Under the pieces are notes generated by a model. The model worked only from the letters and a program-made list of their open reading frames with translations. It was not told where the DNA came from and searched no databases. A stretch of 64,000 nt of DNA from Candidatus Jettenia caeni. Its GTDB lineage: Bacteria; Planctomycetota; Brocadiia; Brocadiales; Brocadiaceae. The stretch is taken from the NCBI GenBank assembly GCA_000296795.1, contig BAFH01000003.1:1426401-1490400 (forward strand), read 5' to 3'. Each line of letters starts with the position of its first letter. The stretch's first letter is position 1. Shown piece by piece: positions 4,519 to 60,064 of this stretch. The position numbers and the translations under genes are program-made.

Positions 4519-5544
4519 CTAAATAAAGATCAAATGTATCGTTACCATACCAAGAGAAGCTAACAGGCAAAAGGTGGCTAAATTGTTGATCTTTACTAAA
4601 AGCCGTTCTGTTATCGGTTGTACCTCTCCATTCTTACAAAGGAAACGCAGTATACCCATCCAACCAACAGCAAAGGTACCAATGATAAATAATCCCAAGA
4701 TAATAGGGGCGTCTGGTACCGTGCCGTTTCCCATAAAGCAATAGATGCAGTGATGGTAAGGAAGCTGCATAAGCCTTGGAGTAATGATCTCAAAAAGCGA
4801 GAGGATGACCACGGGGATATTAATAATTGCTATCGCAGCCTGGCTATAAAAGATACTGTTTTCGGATAATGATAACCACGATTGCCATTTTTTCCGAAGG
4901 GTCGTAAATAGGAAAGCAATGAGGATTATGTTTATTACATAGTAGAGAACAAACAGGATAATCTGAAAGTTGTTTCCCAGGATGGCTTGCGGGATCATGG
5001 CAGAAGGTCTTAACGGTACATCAAAGAAGGTGGCACAACAAGAGACGGACATCATCGGTTTCATACGGAGTACATAAGAGATGTCTGTAATACTGTCTGT
5101 CAAAAGTAAGCCACAGACTATGAGTAAAAAATAAAAGTTTTTTCTCGCTAGCGGTGTTGTGGGGGTGGATTTATCAACGTAATAACACAGTAACCATCCA
5201 CCCATAATAAAAAATGCGATAGGTTTGATGATTTGTAAGAAAATTACCGTAGACGGCAGGATCTGTGTAACGCCAAACATGCACATTGCCCCCGGGATTT
5301 CTGGTACGAAACTCTGGAGCATAATATAAAACCAGGGCCATGCAAGCATACGAATAGCTATAGCTACACATGCAATCAGGAAAATGAGATATCCCTTTTG
5401 TTCAAATTGGCTCCTTCTCTCAAGAGGCACGATTGCCTTAAAATTAAGGAGAGACTTTATTGTTGTATAGAGCAGAAATCCTCCCAGGAAAAGAGAAACA
5501 AATGCAACAAACAACATAATAAGGGTATATATATTTACAATCAT
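4519..5544 (-). CDS. Polytopic membrane protein of unknown function
   Basis: 341 residues with about eight hydrophobic segments spread over the whole length, so it is an integral inner-membrane protein. I do not recognise a named family. Visible features are several cysteines and histidines facing one another, including SVSCCATFFD near residue 170 and HHCIYC near residue 263, just before the last segments, which look like a possible metal site. It sits between a NosL-like gene and a GxxExxY gene, followed upstream by an FtsX/LolD-like ABC transporter, all on the minus strand. Co-transcription suggests it works with the transporter and the NosL-like protein, perhaps in metal or cofactor delivery. 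That role is inference. Confidence 0.6.
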   Translation of the reverse strand: MIVNIYTLIMLFVAFVSLFLGGFLLYTTIKSLLNFKAIVPLERRSQFEQKGYLIFLIACVAIAIRMLAWPWFYIMLQSFVPEIPGAMCMFGVTQILPSTVIFLQIIKPIAFFIMGGWLLCYYVDKSTPTTPLARKNFYFLLIVCGLLLTDSITDISYVLRMKPMMSVSCCATFFDVPLRPSAMIPQAILGNNFQIILFVLYYVINIILIAFLFTTLRKKWQSWLSLSENSIFYSQAAIAIINIPVVILSLFEIITPRLMQLPYHHCIYCFMGNGTVPDAPIILGLFIIGTFAVGWMGILRFLCKNGEVQPITERLLVKINNLATFCLLASLGMVTIHLIFI

Positions 5545-5558
5545 AGTAATAATCTAAC

Positions 5559-6092
5559 TATTTGACAGGATAACAGGATAAACAGGATAATTTTTAAATC
5601 TTGCCTACCATAAATTTTTCTAAATCCTTAATTTTACGTTTAATTTCAACTTTTCTTTCACCAAAGTTAATAACAAGGCCGACCGGTTTCCCAGTAGCAA
5701 CAAGGTAGTTAACTAATTGTACTTCATGAGCATTTATAATTTGCCGAACCGACTTCAGTTCTAGAATAATCGTATCATTAACAATAATATCTGCTACAAA
5801 TTCTCCTACAATCTCATTTTCATAATAAACTGTAATAGGCTTTTGCGATTCTGCGTTAAGCCTTGCTTTACGTAATTCTATAAGCACTATAAGCATGCAC
5901 TTCTCGTATACACTCTCAAGAAAACCAAATCCCATTCTATTATAGACACGATAAGAGCAACCAATAATCCTTTCTGTTAACTCTTTATATTCCATATTAC
6001 CCTCCTTAGATCTATTAAGATAGTCTTTGAGTTATAATACAGATTTGGCTAACAGTATTTATATCTTGTTAATCCTGTTATCCTGTCAAATA
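5559..6092. mobile_element. GxxExxY unit bounded by perfect 21-bp inverted repeats
   Basis: Positions 5559-5579 and 6072-6092 are perfect inverted copies of a 21-bp sequence beginning TATTTGACAGGATAACAGG. Similarity continues inward for about 8 more bases, with a short tandem ACAGGATA pattern on the left. The only gene inside is the GxxExxY protein. The unit lies exactly between two genes of an apparent operon: the left repeat is 14 nt from the membrane-protein start, the right one is 8 nt after the ATPase stop. There is no transposase. It looks like a movable cassette. Confidence 0.65.
5594..5995 (-). CDS. GxxExxY protein (PD-(D/E)XK-like)
   Basis: 133 residues. The family motif is GFLESVY at residues 24-30. 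A PD-(D/E)XK-like core is visible as FVADIIVNDTIILELKS at about residues 76-92 (Asp plus ExK). The end is lysine-rich. The family (PF13366 type) is common in bacteria with no settled function; a nuclease-related role is inferred from the fold. The ribosome site AAGGAGGG is very strong. It sits between the 21-bp inverted repeats described above and splits an ABC-transporter/membrane-protein operon, although it is on the same strand and so may not block transcription. Confidence 0.85.
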   Translation of the reverse strand: MEYKELTERIIGCSYRVYNRMGFGFLESVYEKCMLIVLIELRKARLNAESQKPITVYYENEIVGEFVADIIVNDTIILELKSVRQIINAHEVQLVNYLVATGKPVGLVINFGERKVEIKRKIKDLEKFMVGKI

Positions 6093-6100
6093 TTCTGTAT

Positions 6101-6763
6101 CTATTCAATCTTACCATTTTTCAGTTTAAAAACTCTATCAGCAATTTTCTCAAACCGGGCATCGTGGGTAGCAACCAAAATAGTTACCCCATTGTTCTTC
6201 AATTCAGTTAAAAGCTCTAACATATGCTCTCCGGTTTCTTCATCAATATTCGATGTGGGTTCATCAGCAATAATGATCTCAGGATCATTTATCAATGCCC
6301 GTGCAATAGCTACCCTTTGTTGCTGCCCCCCGCTCAGTTCTTCAGGTGTGTGGTCTAACCGGTCACCAAGTTCAACCTTTTCTAAAAGTAATCTTGCCCT
6401 TTCAAAACGTTTTTTGGTATCGACTCCTAACGGAATAAGGGGATAAGAGACATTCTCCCAACTGGTAAGCCGCGGGATGAGATGAAAATCCTGAAAAATA
6501 AAGCCGATCTTTTCCCGCCGTAATCTTGAAAGAGCAATATCTGAAAAAGTGGTAATATCTTCACCGTACATAAACACCTTGCCTTCGGTAGGTCTATCGA
6601 GTGTACCAATGACGTTAAGCAGGGTAGTTTTCCCGGAGCCGGAAGGTCCTTTGAATATTACAAAGCTCTTTTTCGTGATTTCTAAAGTAATATCCCGTAT
6701 GGCACGTACTTCGTGATGAAAATGACTGCTATAATATTTACTTAAATGCTCGGTTTTTATCAT
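6101..6763 (-). CDS. ABC transporter ATP-binding protein (LolD/MacB type)
   Basis: 220 residues. Walker A is GPSGSGKTT near residue 40, the Q-loop region reads GFIFQDFHLIP, the signature is LSGGQQQRVAIARAL, Walker B is IIIADEPTSNID, and the switch histidine is in VATHDARF. This size and the FHLIPRLTSWENV pattern are typical of LolD/MacB ATPases, which power extraction of lipoproteins or export of peptides and metabolites rather than import. It starts 3 nt after the permease gene, so the two are translated together. With the permease it should form a homodimeric MacB-like machine. Its substrate is unknown; the NosL-like partner hints at metal or cofactor assembly. Confidence 0.85.
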   Translation of the reverse strand: MIKTEHLSKYYSSHFHHEVRAIRDITLEITKKSFVIFKGPSGSGKTTLLNVIGTLDRPTEGKVFMYGEDITTFSDIALSRLRREKIGFIFQDFHLIPRLTSWENVSYPLIPLGVDTKKRFERARLLLEKVELGDRLDHTPEELSGGQQQRVAIARALINDPEIIIADEPTSNIDEETGEHMLELLTELKNNGVTILVATHDARFEKIADRVFKLKNGKIE

Positions 6764-8047: not shown

Positions 8048-8146
8048 GCTAACAGTTATAACATAAAGATAAAAAATGAATGTTAGTTGCAGATAAATAA
8101 GGATAACGATAATAACAAATTATCCTTTGAAGAAAGGAAAAAAATG

Positions 8147-8362
8147 ATGAAAGTATATTATGATGACGAAGTAGATGCTTTGTATTTAAAGTTGGGAGAT
8201 GAGTCGCCGGAAGGAGTTATAGAATTATCTGAAGGGGTTAATTTAGATACAACTTCTGAAGACAAAATAGTAGGTATAGAAATTCTGAATGCCTCTAAAA
8301 AAATGGATTTAAAAACGATCATGACAAGAATGTGTTTCTTGAGTTGTTGCATGATGGGCTGA
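8147..8362 (+). CDS. DUF2283 protein, 3' end fused to transposon-derived sequence
   Basis: About 71 residues from the second ATG of an ATGATG pair; a GAAAGGA site precedes it. The first 50 residues match DUF2283: MKVYYDDEVDALYLKLGD, an EGVNLDTTSEDKIVGIEIL core and the closing NASKKM. DUF2283 proteins are small, often sit next to toxin or PIN genes, and have no proven role. The last 17 residues (TRMCFLSCCMMG end) are read out of frame through the adjoining transposase fragment, so the natural C-terminus was probably replaced at about 8315. No toxin partner remains. Confidence 0.65.
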   Translation: MKVYYDDEVDALYLKLGDESPEGVIELSEGVNLDTTSEDKIVGIEILNASKKMDLKTIMTRMCFLSCCMMG

Positions 8363-8640
8363 AAACTTATACTATCATCAAAGAGACGAACAAAAGTTTT
8401 GATGAAATAAAAGGGGAGCGGGGTATTCTGAGGCAAATAGCTATGGACTTGTTGTGCCGGGTTGGTGGACTCAGCGGGACTGAGATAGGAGAGATGATGG
8501 GGGTAGACTATAGTACGGTGAGCCAGAGGAGAAAACGATTACGAGAAAAACTGAAAAATGATAACCATATTGCTCAGATTATCAAAAGAGTTGAGGTTGA
8601 TTTGTCAACAATAAATATTTGATCCCATTTTCTCTGACCC
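8315..8640 (+). pseudogene. Fragment of REP-associated (Y1/RAYT-like) transposase, C-terminal part
   Basis: The frame ending at 8622 encodes a remnant rather than a full protein. It holds the end of a helix-turn-helix tail, with LLCRVGGLSGTEIGEMMG and VDYSTVSQRRKRL motifs as in the C-terminal extension of some Y1 (IS200-like/RAYT) transposases. The catalytic HUH and Tyr region is missing; a short FLELLHDG piece upstream may be all that is left of it. Right after the stop, CCCATTTTCTCTGACCCCAT resembles sequence often found at the edges of such elements. It overlaps the DUF2283 end in another frame. Confidence 0.5.
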
Positions 8641-8984: not shown

Positions 8985-9194
8985 AGTAAGACAGGGGAAT
9001 GACAAAAAACACATTCCATTCCGGTGTTTCCCGGGAGATTCATGTAATCTCCTCAAAAATCAATCAAAATCTATGGATACTCATGAAAACTTCTCGAATG
9101 TTAGGTATATCCTGGTTTGCAATCTCATGTAATGTATAGGAATTTCAAAGCGAGTCTGATAGGGATAGGGAAGACAATCATCTCCCCTCCCTCC

Positions 9195-9227
9195 GAACCA
9201 TACAGGAGGGTCTCCCGCATACGGCTC
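9195..9227 (-). ncRNA. Orphan group II intron domain V
   Basis: Read on the minus strand, the sequence starts GAGCCGTATGCGGG and ends TGTATGGTTC. The first eight and last eight bases pair (GAGCCGTA with TATGGTTC, with G-U pairs), which is the outer stem of domain V, including the AGC catalytic triad position. The inner stem is poor. No reverse-transcriptase gene is nearby, so this is a decayed end. Confidence 0.55.
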
Positions 9228-9405
9228 TCCAGTCAGTGGGTTCCCCATCGGGATTGATCAATTAGTATCTGAGCTGTGGTTACTGTGAACAAAATGAGAT
9301 ATACCTCAATCTGTTATTTCCAGCAATGTTAAAATATTCCAATTGAATTCGCTGAAAATACCAGGAAGCTCATTCACAGATTAAATATACACCAAACAAA
9401 TTTGT

Positions 9406-11775: not shown

Positions 11776-13658
11776 ACAGGCTGTCCGAGAAAGTGGTTAA
11801 TAAATAAGAGTAAGAGATAAAGGAAATTGTGGATAAATGAAAATACCATCGATAAACAAGCCAGGAAAAGGTTAACCTATTTTCATCCAAAACATCCTTT
11901 TATGTCAGGAGCATAAAAAGGACATGGAACTACTACCCTAAGGGCTTGTTTTCCTCGTATTACCTTAATACCGTGGCAGGCCTTATTCCCATTTTCAGCA
12001 TCTTTTTTAAATTCCATCCAATACACATCAACTGAAATTCCGCACGGACTTTTTCCAGTCCTCGTAAGAGAAAGTTTCGATACCCCACGTTGAATTTCAA
12101 ATGCCCGAAGACTGGTTCGATGATATACTGACGCATAAAATATTTTCGCCTTCCCTCATCAGATGTCAACTTCTCTCTCATCTTTTGTAAAAGAGGTTCA
12201 CGAATATCCAGGAACAATTCCCTTACCTTTGCCTTTGTGCATAATGACCGCTTCTGACATGTCCCACACTCCGTCCCCCTGTAAACCTTATGATTCCACT
12301 GACGGCTCTCTGTCTTCTCTGTTCTGGTCTTCCAATATAGTAACTGCTTTCCTTCCGGGCATACATACCTATCGCTTGCCGCATCATAGGTAAAATTGGT
12401 AGAGTGATATCGATTCTCTTCCTTTTTATATGCTCCTGACTTGTACTGCTGAAAATGATCATCCGGAATATATCCATCGATCTCTCTCTCTTCAAGATAC
12501 TCATAATTTGCATAGCTCCCGTACCCGCAATCTGCCGCAACTTCTTTAACTTTCTCCTGAGTATTTGCCTCTGTCAGCTCTAGCACAGATTTCAATTGGT
12601 TCCGGTCATTCGCTTCCGTTACCGCCTCCGATGCTACAATAATCCCACTCTCGGTTACCACTGTCTGACAGTTGTAGCCGGGACGTATGTCTTTACTTCC
12701 CCCGCTTTTCATATGATTGGCATCCCGATCGGTAAGATTGATCTTCTCTTTTCCTTCCTCCTTCATCACCTCCAGCGCCTCTTCTATCTTCTTTTTCAGG
12801 TATGTACGGTCTGATAACTTCTCCTGTAATGCCTCTTGTTCAGGATCTACTTTGCAGGTATCGTCTTCTTGTTTGTCGATCGTTTCTGCTTCCTGAAGTA
12901 ATGTCGCTATCTCCTCTTCTATCCCTGAGAGCCATTTCTCAAACCCCGCACGATCTTTCGTCCGCTTTGCCGATGCATTCCCTTTGAGCTTGGTCCCATC
13001 CAGGTATATCTTTCCTACGCTGGTATACCCCAACTCACTGAATATCCTTACGATATCCACAAAATACTTCTCTATCGCTTTGAGATTATTCTTGCGAAAA
13101 TCGCTTATTGTCCGATGGTCCGGCGTGTAGCATTGTATCAGATACATATACACATGATCGCTCAGGCATCTCTCTTCTAGCTTTCTACTACTCCTTAACC
13201 CTGTTGCATACCCATAAAAGAGCACACTTAAGAGTAACTTCGGATGATAGGTACGTTGGCCTAACAAAGAATAGGTCGCCTCTGTTGCTTCGGTGTCTAA
13301 CGAGAATACGACCTCTTTGACTAATCTGCACAGATGGTCTTTGGGTAATACCGTTTCGATATAATCTAAAAACGCTTCGGGAGTAAACCTCATCAGGGGT
13401 TTCTGGAATTCATGAAATGGTTTAAATTTCGCCATATGATTGATTCTCCTTGGATTTTCTCTTGGTAAGGCAATGAATGAATCAGCATATTTCTTCGGTG
13501 ATATCGTTGGCTCGAAGCAAAATTTTAACTGATTATTGTGGTTTTGTTTTGGGGTTCTCATTGGTACTTCATTATATCATTGTACTGGATTGCCTCAACT
13601 AAATTGTCACTCTCTTTCTAACAAAATTTGAAAAACCCTCCATTCTCGGACAGCCTGT
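11776..13658 (-). mobile_element. Complete IS1182-family insertion sequence
   Basis: 16-bp terminal inverted repeats ACAGGCTGTCCGAGAA lie at 11776-11791 and inverted at 13643-13658, giving an element of about 1.88 kb. It holds one transposase gene on the minus strand. No clear target duplication is visible (left flank AATGTAT, right flank TTACC). The same ends occur on two 120-bp MITEs at 22681 and 35942. Confidence 0.82.
11960..13435 (-). CDS. IS1182-family transposase
   Basis: About 491 residues from the ATG at 13435, chosen because AAGGAG lies 10 nt upstream; a longer frame to 13561 adds a Lys/Asn-rich stretch that is probably not translated. DDE-type transposase: an N-terminal DUF772-like helical domain (LDYIETVLPKDHL through TISDFRKNN), the first Asp in KIYLDGTKLKGNAS, the second in VAADCGYGSYANY, a Cys-rich finger-like insert (CGTCQKRSLC), and the final Glu in IEPVFGHLKFNVGYR. 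It looks intact and could be active. It may also mobilise the small MITEs that share its ends. Confidence 0.88.
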   Translation of the reverse strand: MAKFKPFHEFQKPLMRFTPEAFLDYIETVLPKDHLCRLVKEVVFSLDTEATEATYSLLGQRTYHPKLLLSVLFYGYATGLRSSRKLEERCLSDHVYMYLIQCYTPDHRTISDFRKNNLKAIEKYFVDIVRIFSELGYTSVGKIYLDGTKLKGNASAKRTKDRAGFEKWLSGIEEEIATLLQEAETIDKQEDDTCKVDPEQEALQEKLSDRTYLKKKIEEALEVMKEEGKEKINLTDRDANHMKSGGSKDIRPGYNCQTVVTESGIIVASEAVTEANDRNQLKSVLELTEANTQEKVKEVAADCGYGSYANYEYLEEREIDGYIPDDHFQQYKSGAYKKEENRYHSTNFTYDAASDRYVCPEGKQLLYWKTRTEKTESRQWNHKVYRGTECGTCQKRSLCTKAKVRELFLDIREPLLQKMREKLTSDEGRRKYFMRQYIIEPVFGHLKFNVGYRNFLLRGLEKVRAEFQLMCIGWNLKKMLKMGIRPATVLR

Positions 13659-43585: not shown

Positions 43586-43681
43586 ATTCGCCCGGCAACC
43601 CTGCTACCATATTCTTAATGAAGATTTAGGCCAGTGGCTTTGCGTCCCATCCTTTCGAATGGTTTGCCTTTATCAGGTTTC
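43586..43681 (-). promoter_or_regulatory. c-di-GMP-I (GEMM-I) riboswitch aptamer
   Basis: Read on the minus strand: GATAAAGGCAAACCATTCGA, then AAGGATGGGACGCAAAGCC, then ACTGGCCTAAATC and finally GGTAGCAGGGTTGCCGGGCG. All conserved GEMM-I parts are present: GGCAAACC, a short P1b hairpin with GAAA loop, GGGACGCAAAGCC, GGCCTAA pairing with the GGTAGC side, and the closing GTTGCC. The ligand-contacting G (second G of GGCAAA) is kept, favouring c-di-GMP over cGAMP. Confidence 0.92.
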
Positions 43682-59911: not shown

Positions 59912-60064
59912 TCTTCCGATAAAGGCAAACTCTGAGTAATCAGGGGGCGCAAAGGAAAGGGTCTTGTAACCGTGGACAGTGTTCGTGAACAGTGTCAGTA
60001 TAAGTAAAAGACACTTACACCCATAACTGGAACGATGAAAATAAGATAGCCTTACTGCCGAAGA
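59912..60064 (+). promoter_or_regulatory. c-di-GMP-I (GEMM-I) riboswitch aptamer with enlarged P2 arm
   Basis: TCTTC (59912) pairs with GAAGA (60060) as the outer stem. GATAAAGGCAAAC, then a P1b hairpin TCTGA-GTAA-TCAGG with a GNRA loop, then GGGCGCAAAG and GGGTCTT follow. The P2 3' strand AAGATAGCC and the closing CTTACTGCCG complete the aptamer. The P2 arm carries about 77 nt of extra hairpins (for example TAAGT/ACTTA). The ligand-contact G of GGCAAA (59925) is kept. Confidence 0.85.

Follow-up and report, generated by a model that had tools for sequence, protein, structure and literature searches.

RAYT/REP (TnpA-REP) systems consist of a single small gene within short inverted sequences, of which many gene-less copies also exist; the RAYT protein is a Y1/HUH transposase and the REPs are single palindromes. 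Insertion sequences and MITEs have terminal inverted repeats round one gene, ectopic copies, and internally deleted derivatives. PD-(D/E)XK homing endonucleases and free-standing homing genes place a small nuclease gene between host genes, at a recurrent site and with no duplication; known homing genes have no inverted multi-unit arms. In Beggiatoaceae, short quasi-tandem units (TAACTGA heptamers) are dispersed as direct repeats in intergenic gaps near start codons; no partner gene has been described for them, and a mobile origin has been considered (PMC4679880).

The unit considered here lies in the window, the whole stretch of 64,000 nucleotides of Candidatus Jettenia caeni DNA that was analysed, and shares traits with all of these systems. 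Its protein is a clear member of the GxxExxY family (TIGR04256/PF13366 PDDEXK_3), a family named by its motif only. The earlier note on this DNA had likened the unit to RAYT/REP pairs; a loose functional likeness stands and the closer one does not, since the unit encodes no Y1/HUH transposase and its arms differ from REP palindromes. Instead, it has a predicted Cas4-like PD-(D/E)XK nuclease, multi-unit helically phased inverted arms, and many sequence subtypes. It differs from insertion sequences and MITEs in having no transposase and no detectable target-site duplication, in ending in unit arrays, and in strongly preferring short operon junctions, and from homing genes in its inverted unit arms, ectopic copies, and gene-less derivatives. 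Four-helix-bundle (TIGR02436) genes and 23S rRNA intervening sequences resemble it in having a small ORF in inverted quasi-tandem-unit arms that sits in operon gaps of the same genomes, but their protein is unrelated and their units are 7 bp rather than 9-10 bp long; the Beggiatoaceae heptamers, as 7-bp direct repeats with no partner gene, are nearer to the arms of these four-helix-bundle elements. We know of no named kind of element that combines unit-array arms round a lone Cas4-like nuclease, the absence of a transposase, and a sister class with another protein. The searchable literature, outside which most subscription journals lie, yielded no description of inverted arms, dispersal, or mobility for the GxxExxY family; an earlier description elsewhere is possible. 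Within it, the name GxxExxY appears in two papers, one of which does not concern mobility, the family accessions in one on microalgae, and the unit sequences in one on Bacteroides capsule loci.

Anatomy and Operon Setting

The whole mobile unit is 534 bp long (5559-6092, minus strand), as indicated by homology that is restricted to the element and by empty sites in nine relatives. Its left arm (5559-5589, plus strand) is made up of the three units GACAGGATA-ACAGGATAA-ACAGGATA, and its right arm (6062-6092, minus strand) is an inverted copy of the left, 94% identical over 31 nt; in both arms the three short units are quasi-tandem, with ACAGGAT at 8-9 bp spacing. The outer 21 nt (5559-5579 and 6072-6092; sequence TATTTGACAGGATAACAGGAT) form a perfect inverted repeat. 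The 15-mer ACAGGATAACAGGAT occurs at two places in the whole 4.09-Mb genome, both of them the window arms, and its reversed control at none; this unique pair, together with the inverted-repeat scores of neighbouring genes and shuffled sequences given below, rules out a chance repeat.

The arms enclose a single gene, the GxxExxY gene (5594-5995, minus strand, 133 aa), which is identified by profile matches, conserved motifs, and a predicted model. A 66-bp leader (5996-6061, minus strand) extends from the right arm to the start codon; it was defined from sequence only, as was the short purine-rich stretch within it just 5' of the ATG. On the outer side, the left arm lies 14 bp from the start codon of a membrane-protein gene with no Pfam or NCBIfam match (4519-5544, minus strand), and 8 bp separate the right arm from the stop codon of an ABC transporter ATPase gene recognised by profile search (6101-6763, minus strand), so that all three genes are read from the same strand. 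The earlier note's description of a lone GxxExxY gene within perfect 21-bp inverted repeats, whose outer bounds fall between two genes of a tight operon, is accurate in each part, and if anything too modest.

Other features of the window include a transposase gene (DDE_Tnp_1_6/DUF772; 11960-13561), an Rfam group II intron match just above the gathering score and with no adjoining large reverse transcriptase ORF (9159-9229, minus strand), and two c-di-GMP-I riboswitch aptamers (43591-43678, minus strand; 59914-60062, plus strand). A DUF2283 gene followed by a small helix-turn-helix gene (sigma-70 region 4-like), with a 31-bp overlap (8087-8622), is possibly a two-gene cassette.

The GxxExxY Protein

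TIGR04256 is the only NCBIfam model matched by the window protein (E=5.8e-39; 133 bits, cut-off 35), and PF13366 PDDEXK_3 the only Pfam model (E=7e-38; 130 bits, cut-off 22). The protein contains E27, D69, E79-x-K81, and Q93-x3-Y97, which match the RecB/Cas4 motif set; across an alignment of 77 sequences D69, E79, Q93, and Y97 are invariant and K81 is present in more than 90%. A sequence search of solved structures with the window protein gave no match, and a predicted model was therefore used. The AlphaFold model built from the 77 sequences (mean pLDDT 89.9, pTM 0.84) has the Cas4 protein SSO0001 as its best fold match (Foldseek E 1e-4; VIA-align Z 11.3, 3.4 A over 106 residues), with further matches to lambda and LHK exonucleases, AddAB, Hjc, and restriction enzymes. 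On this model the PD-(D/E)XK-like core that had been proposed for the protein is supported and would be specifically of the Cas4/RecB/lambda-exonuclease type; nuclease activity is predicted from fold and motifs.

The protein is not Cas4 proper. Cas4 profiles match it weakly (E about 1e-3), the 77-sequence alignment contains no invariant or nearly invariant cysteine and no conserved cysteine cluster of the kind that would hold an Fe-S centre, and there are no cas genes, cas1 and cas2 included, beside the gene at the window locus. Nor does the element encode a Y1/HUH, DDE, serine, or tyrosine transposase by profile search, its sole gene being the PDDEXK_3/TIGR04256 gene.

Arms Across the GxxExxY Family

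For flank analysis 80 loci from many phyla were taken, and an inverted-repeat score was computed between the 200 bp upstream and the 200 bp downstream of each gene, with a threshold of 24. This score was reached by 75% of 73 GxxExxY genes from other genomes, against 3.3% of 92 neighbour genes and 3.0% of shuffled sequences (GxxExxY versus controls, Mann-Whitney p=7e-21). After Brocadiales copies were added and near-duplicates removed, 94 of 111 non-redundant loci scored 24 or more; detectable arms were absent at the remaining 17. Armed loci are found in Planctomycetota, Desulfobacterota, Bacteroidota, Chloroflexota, Nitrospirota, Patescibacteria, and others, as well as in one Methanoperedens archaeon. 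The flanks of other family members thus do carry inverted repeats, as the earlier note's reading of a boxed gene implies; in one copy (L063) the arms are perfect.

GxxExxY arms consist of two to four imperfect units of 9-10 bp that read inward from both ends, and the autocorrelation of pooled arms peaks at 9-10 bp. The spacers between units are often unequal in the two arms of an element while the units are kept. Unit sequence varies from copy to copy: the window genome has six further GxxExxY places, most of them with inverted arms of other sequence, in which CACAAAG, CACGAAG, or CACAGAT units replace ACAGGAT. A single repeat sequence for the whole family is thereby ruled out, and because the units differ between copies, a search for repeats of the ACAGGATAACAGGAT type alone, as had been suggested, would miss most family members; it is the inverted architecture that is common. 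Arm similarity nevertheless rises with protein identity (Spearman rho 0.375; Mantel test, 0 of 999 permutations as high, maximum 0.17), whereas at the same loci the similarity of sequence outside the arms does not track protein identity.

Elements Encoding Four-Helix-Bundle Proteins

TIGR02436 genes of the same genomes were chosen as a negative control and proved to be boxed as well, with 20 of 24 loci (L225-L254, Brocadiales genomes) scoring at least 24. Their arms are built of 7-bp quasi-tandem units (AGTAGCC, AGGCTGA, TTACTGA, CGGATTT, and others), with an autocorrelation of 0.59 at lag 7 and 0.55 at lag 14, and homology between these elements (70-75% identity) is again limited to the element. 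TIGR02436, which is not a nuclease family, is known as the 23S rRNA intervening-sequence protein; the window gene has no TIGR02436 match. The four-helix-bundle loci probably form a sister class, and their arms show that the anatomy extends beyond GxxExxY and is not specific to nucleases. Unit length goes with protein family, 9-10 bp for GxxExxY and 7 bp for TIGR02436.

Empty Sites and Re-Used Junctions

The joined flanks of seven window-genome copies were searched in 34 relatives and the matching regions were read. The window junction is empty in nine of them (G003, G005, G006, G009, G011, G016, G017, G019, and G041), and at most of these empty junctions the two host genes overlap or are almost contiguous. 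Copies of the same subfamily fill the junction in G002 and G012, the G002 copy being interrupted by another insert; G005, a congener of G012, is empty at the junction that G012 has filled. A 72% match running through the flanks suggests, from sequence comparison, that a copy in G023 occupies the same site. These empty sites rule out a single locus fixed in all relatives, which would have spoken against the mobile gene proposed earlier.

The same junction can also hold other units. In G001, of the same genus, the window junction is a 186-bp gap with a noncoding unit bounded by CACGAAT arms, and in G015 it contains a 162-bp unit with CACGGA arms. An RND efflux junction holds a CACAGAT-armed gene copy in six genomes (G000, G002, G003, G018, G030, and G032) and a CGCAGAG-armed copy in eight (G001, G008, G013, G015, G020, G024, G029, and G044), and is empty in G016. 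That the same junctions hold different subtypes suggests a target preference, and vertical inheritance or transfer of whole operons may account for part of the occupied junctions. A search for close empty sites within genus g11 led mostly to junctions that carry other insertions; the nearest empty site, that of L004 in G008, is about 88% identical.

At the L004-orthologous junction of G009 (L149) at least two arm-bounded units stand in series in one intergenic gap, and one of these has an internal deletion. In G002, two GxxExxY copies (L120, window-orthologous, and L176, L009-orthologous) are each split by a related insert, about 400 bp long, which starts with TATAGTGATCAACGACTGAAACCGAACA and ends with a partly inverted copy of it: another small mobile element that hits these genes. 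A repeat of about 48 bp in the flank of L263 (positions 1393-1440 of the query) recurs at many dispersed places in the genomes of genus g11.

Dispersal, Selection, and Derivatives

Related units occur at unrelated sites. In G053 a pilin-type operon holds a unit (L213) that shares 79% identity with the window element, limited to window positions 5563-6094, and beside a thiolase-like gene in G050, from another family of the order, lies one (L220) that shares 80% identity with it, only over 5561-6005; in both the homology stops at or inside the arms. Three copies in G052 are 86-88% identical over about 480 bp and have unrelated flanks, a second copy group shows 86-93% identity between and within genomes that is limited to the element, and a Desulfobacteraceae copy is 80% identical to Scalindua copies over 426 bp. 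Copy number ranges from 0 to 14 between related genomes. Only eight plasmid records and no phage records have a match, and a plasmid or phage vehicle was rejected on this ground. With empty sites, ectopic copies, and family-wide arms, the mobility of the unit at 5559-6092 is well supported, and the small mobile gene boxed by inverted repeats that the earlier note had suspected is supported.

Between related copies at different sites dN/dS is 0.04-0.23; the protein has thus been kept under selection during spread, which counts against its being a mere passenger. Derivatives with no intact gene exist alongside: internal-deletion copies of 170 bp (L135) and 271 bp (L143) at the L007 site are MITE-like, and noncoding copies of 160-190 bp carry the arms of a coding relative (L119, L133, and L141). 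Some arms of the window genome stand alone or in short pairs, at a distance from all GxxExxY genes. When a generic arm pattern of three units was scanned with its reversed control in 59 Brocadiales genomes, it gave 896 matches against 14 for the control. The 48 genomes that have a GxxExxY match carry 18.4 arm motifs on average, and the 11 that lack one carry 1.3; this correlation of arm count with gene count is partly phylogenetic, and it also holds within family f1 (rho 0.48, p=0.005).

Routes of Movement

The best-supported reading is that the unit is an element, autonomous or mobilised in trans within its family, whose small protein recognises its own unit arrays; the family-specific unit length, the co-inheritance of arm and protein, the selection on the protein, and the dependence of arm copies on the gene all argue that the protein reads its own arms. 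We consider it probable, with some reserve, that the unit is a minimal transposable element moved by its own nuclease acting on its phased-unit arms. The arms (two to four helically phased 9-10-bp units) and the single Cas4/RecB-like gene would travel as one unit; the nuclease would recognise the phased units of its own subfamily's arms and nick or trim the ends, possibly with the arms paired as a hairpin or cruciform. Host repair or replication would then seal the unit into a new short operon junction with no detectable target-site duplication, and internal-deletion copies and solo arms would be left behind. Recognition and cutting of the arms by the protein, a DNA intermediate, the joining step, and the choice of target are inferred from the pattern of the observations given above.

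TIGR02436 elements share the architecture without sharing the nuclease family, so both kinds might be moved by a common mobiliser and not by the protein they enclose. On that view the arms would be what is mobile, and any arm-bounded unit would be moved by shared machinery, trans-acting or of the host (reverse transcriptase, replication slippage, or another recombinase), with the GxxExxY and four-helix-bundle genes as passengers or accessory factors. The boxing of two unrelated protein families by the same arm architecture, the noncoding copies, and the lack of a transposase in the element are all consistent with such machinery. It would not by itself account for a unit length that is specific to the protein family or for strong purifying selection on the protein between copies. 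CAC-type arm motifs are scarce where TIGR02436 is present with little or no GxxExxY, as in G033, G036, and G040; the TIGR02436-rich, GxxExxY-poor G033 and G036 have none. We regard shared machinery as unlikely.

The insertion sites bear on whether movement passes through RNA. None of the 91 elements with neighbours on both sides lies inside an ORF, the median distances to the neighbours being 9 and 17 bp; 75 of the 91 lie between codirectional genes, and 69 of these 75 are co-oriented with their neighbours, as are all 13 four-helix-bundle elements so placed. Symmetrical ends alone would predict 50% co-orientation, and an IVS-like element could explain the excess if its arms paired in the operon transcript, looped out or released the gene, and spread by an RNA step. 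The role of TIGR02436 as the 23S rRNA intervening-sequence protein fits this, as does the closer match of the arms within an element to each other than to the arms of the nearest relative, a comparison biased by selection on the inverted-repeat score. Ordinary genes at the same loci are, however, co-oriented about as often (100 of 112), so the co-orientation of the elements alone does not establish an RNA step; the differing spacers with conserved units fit protein recognition better than pairing, and the element has no reverse transcriptase. An RNA-level route appears improbable. One element (L271, in G013) was seen by eye to lie between a reverse transcriptase-like gene and a cas1-like gene, and a GxxExxY gene beside a CRISPR-like reverse transcriptase is reported for another record (PMC8934634).

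Slightly less probable still is a homing-like process, in which the nuclease would cut the empty junction and repair with homologous flanks would copy the element in. It would suit the occurrence of different subtypes at one junction in different genomes, as at the RND efflux site, and the lack of a detected target-site duplication: shared words outside the arms are not in excess (4.37 versus 4.52 in shuffled sequences, P=0.93), the empty sites compared being at most about 88% identical. It would also suit a shift in flank identity across the element at the L006-orthologous junction of G001 (L158), where identity to the window genome falls from 93% to 81%, a jump that may mark elements as recombination breakpoints. 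On the other hand, the presence of near-identical units at sites that are unrelated requires ectopic insertion, and homing genes are not known to carry inverted multi-unit arms. A vertically inherited housekeeping gene with regulatory repeats can be set aside as negligible: the arms could be operators, and many relatives have an element at certain junctions, the RND site among them, but the empty sites, the dispersal of three copies within one genome, homology across phyla that is limited to the element, and the variation in copy number refute it.

Concluding Remarks

Movement of the unit by its own nuclease, if correct, may be one instance of something wider. We suggest tentatively, and with more doubt than conviction, a new mode of DNA mobility in which phased-unit arms serve as the address for a small family-specific protein (a Cas4-like nuclease for 9-10-bp units, a four-helix bundle for 7-bp units), so that transposase-free units enter operon junctions in bacteria and archaea and become a source of many short dispersed repeats in environmental genomes. 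At the least, this is apparently an undescribed and widespread kind of mobile DNA, present in many bacteria and at least one archaeon, with no known transposition enzyme. It would add to the transposable elements one that has no known transposase, a unit of about 450-600 bp whose only protein is a minimal Cas4/RecB-like nuclease, and its confinement to operon junctions raises the question of how DNA is added inside operons so often with no visible damage. The protein-family-specific unit length (9-10 versus 7 bp) makes the recognition code directly testable. A very common gene family whose role is unknown would thereby gain a name and a mechanism open to test, as would many of the so far unexplained short repeats that lie between genes in environmental genomes.
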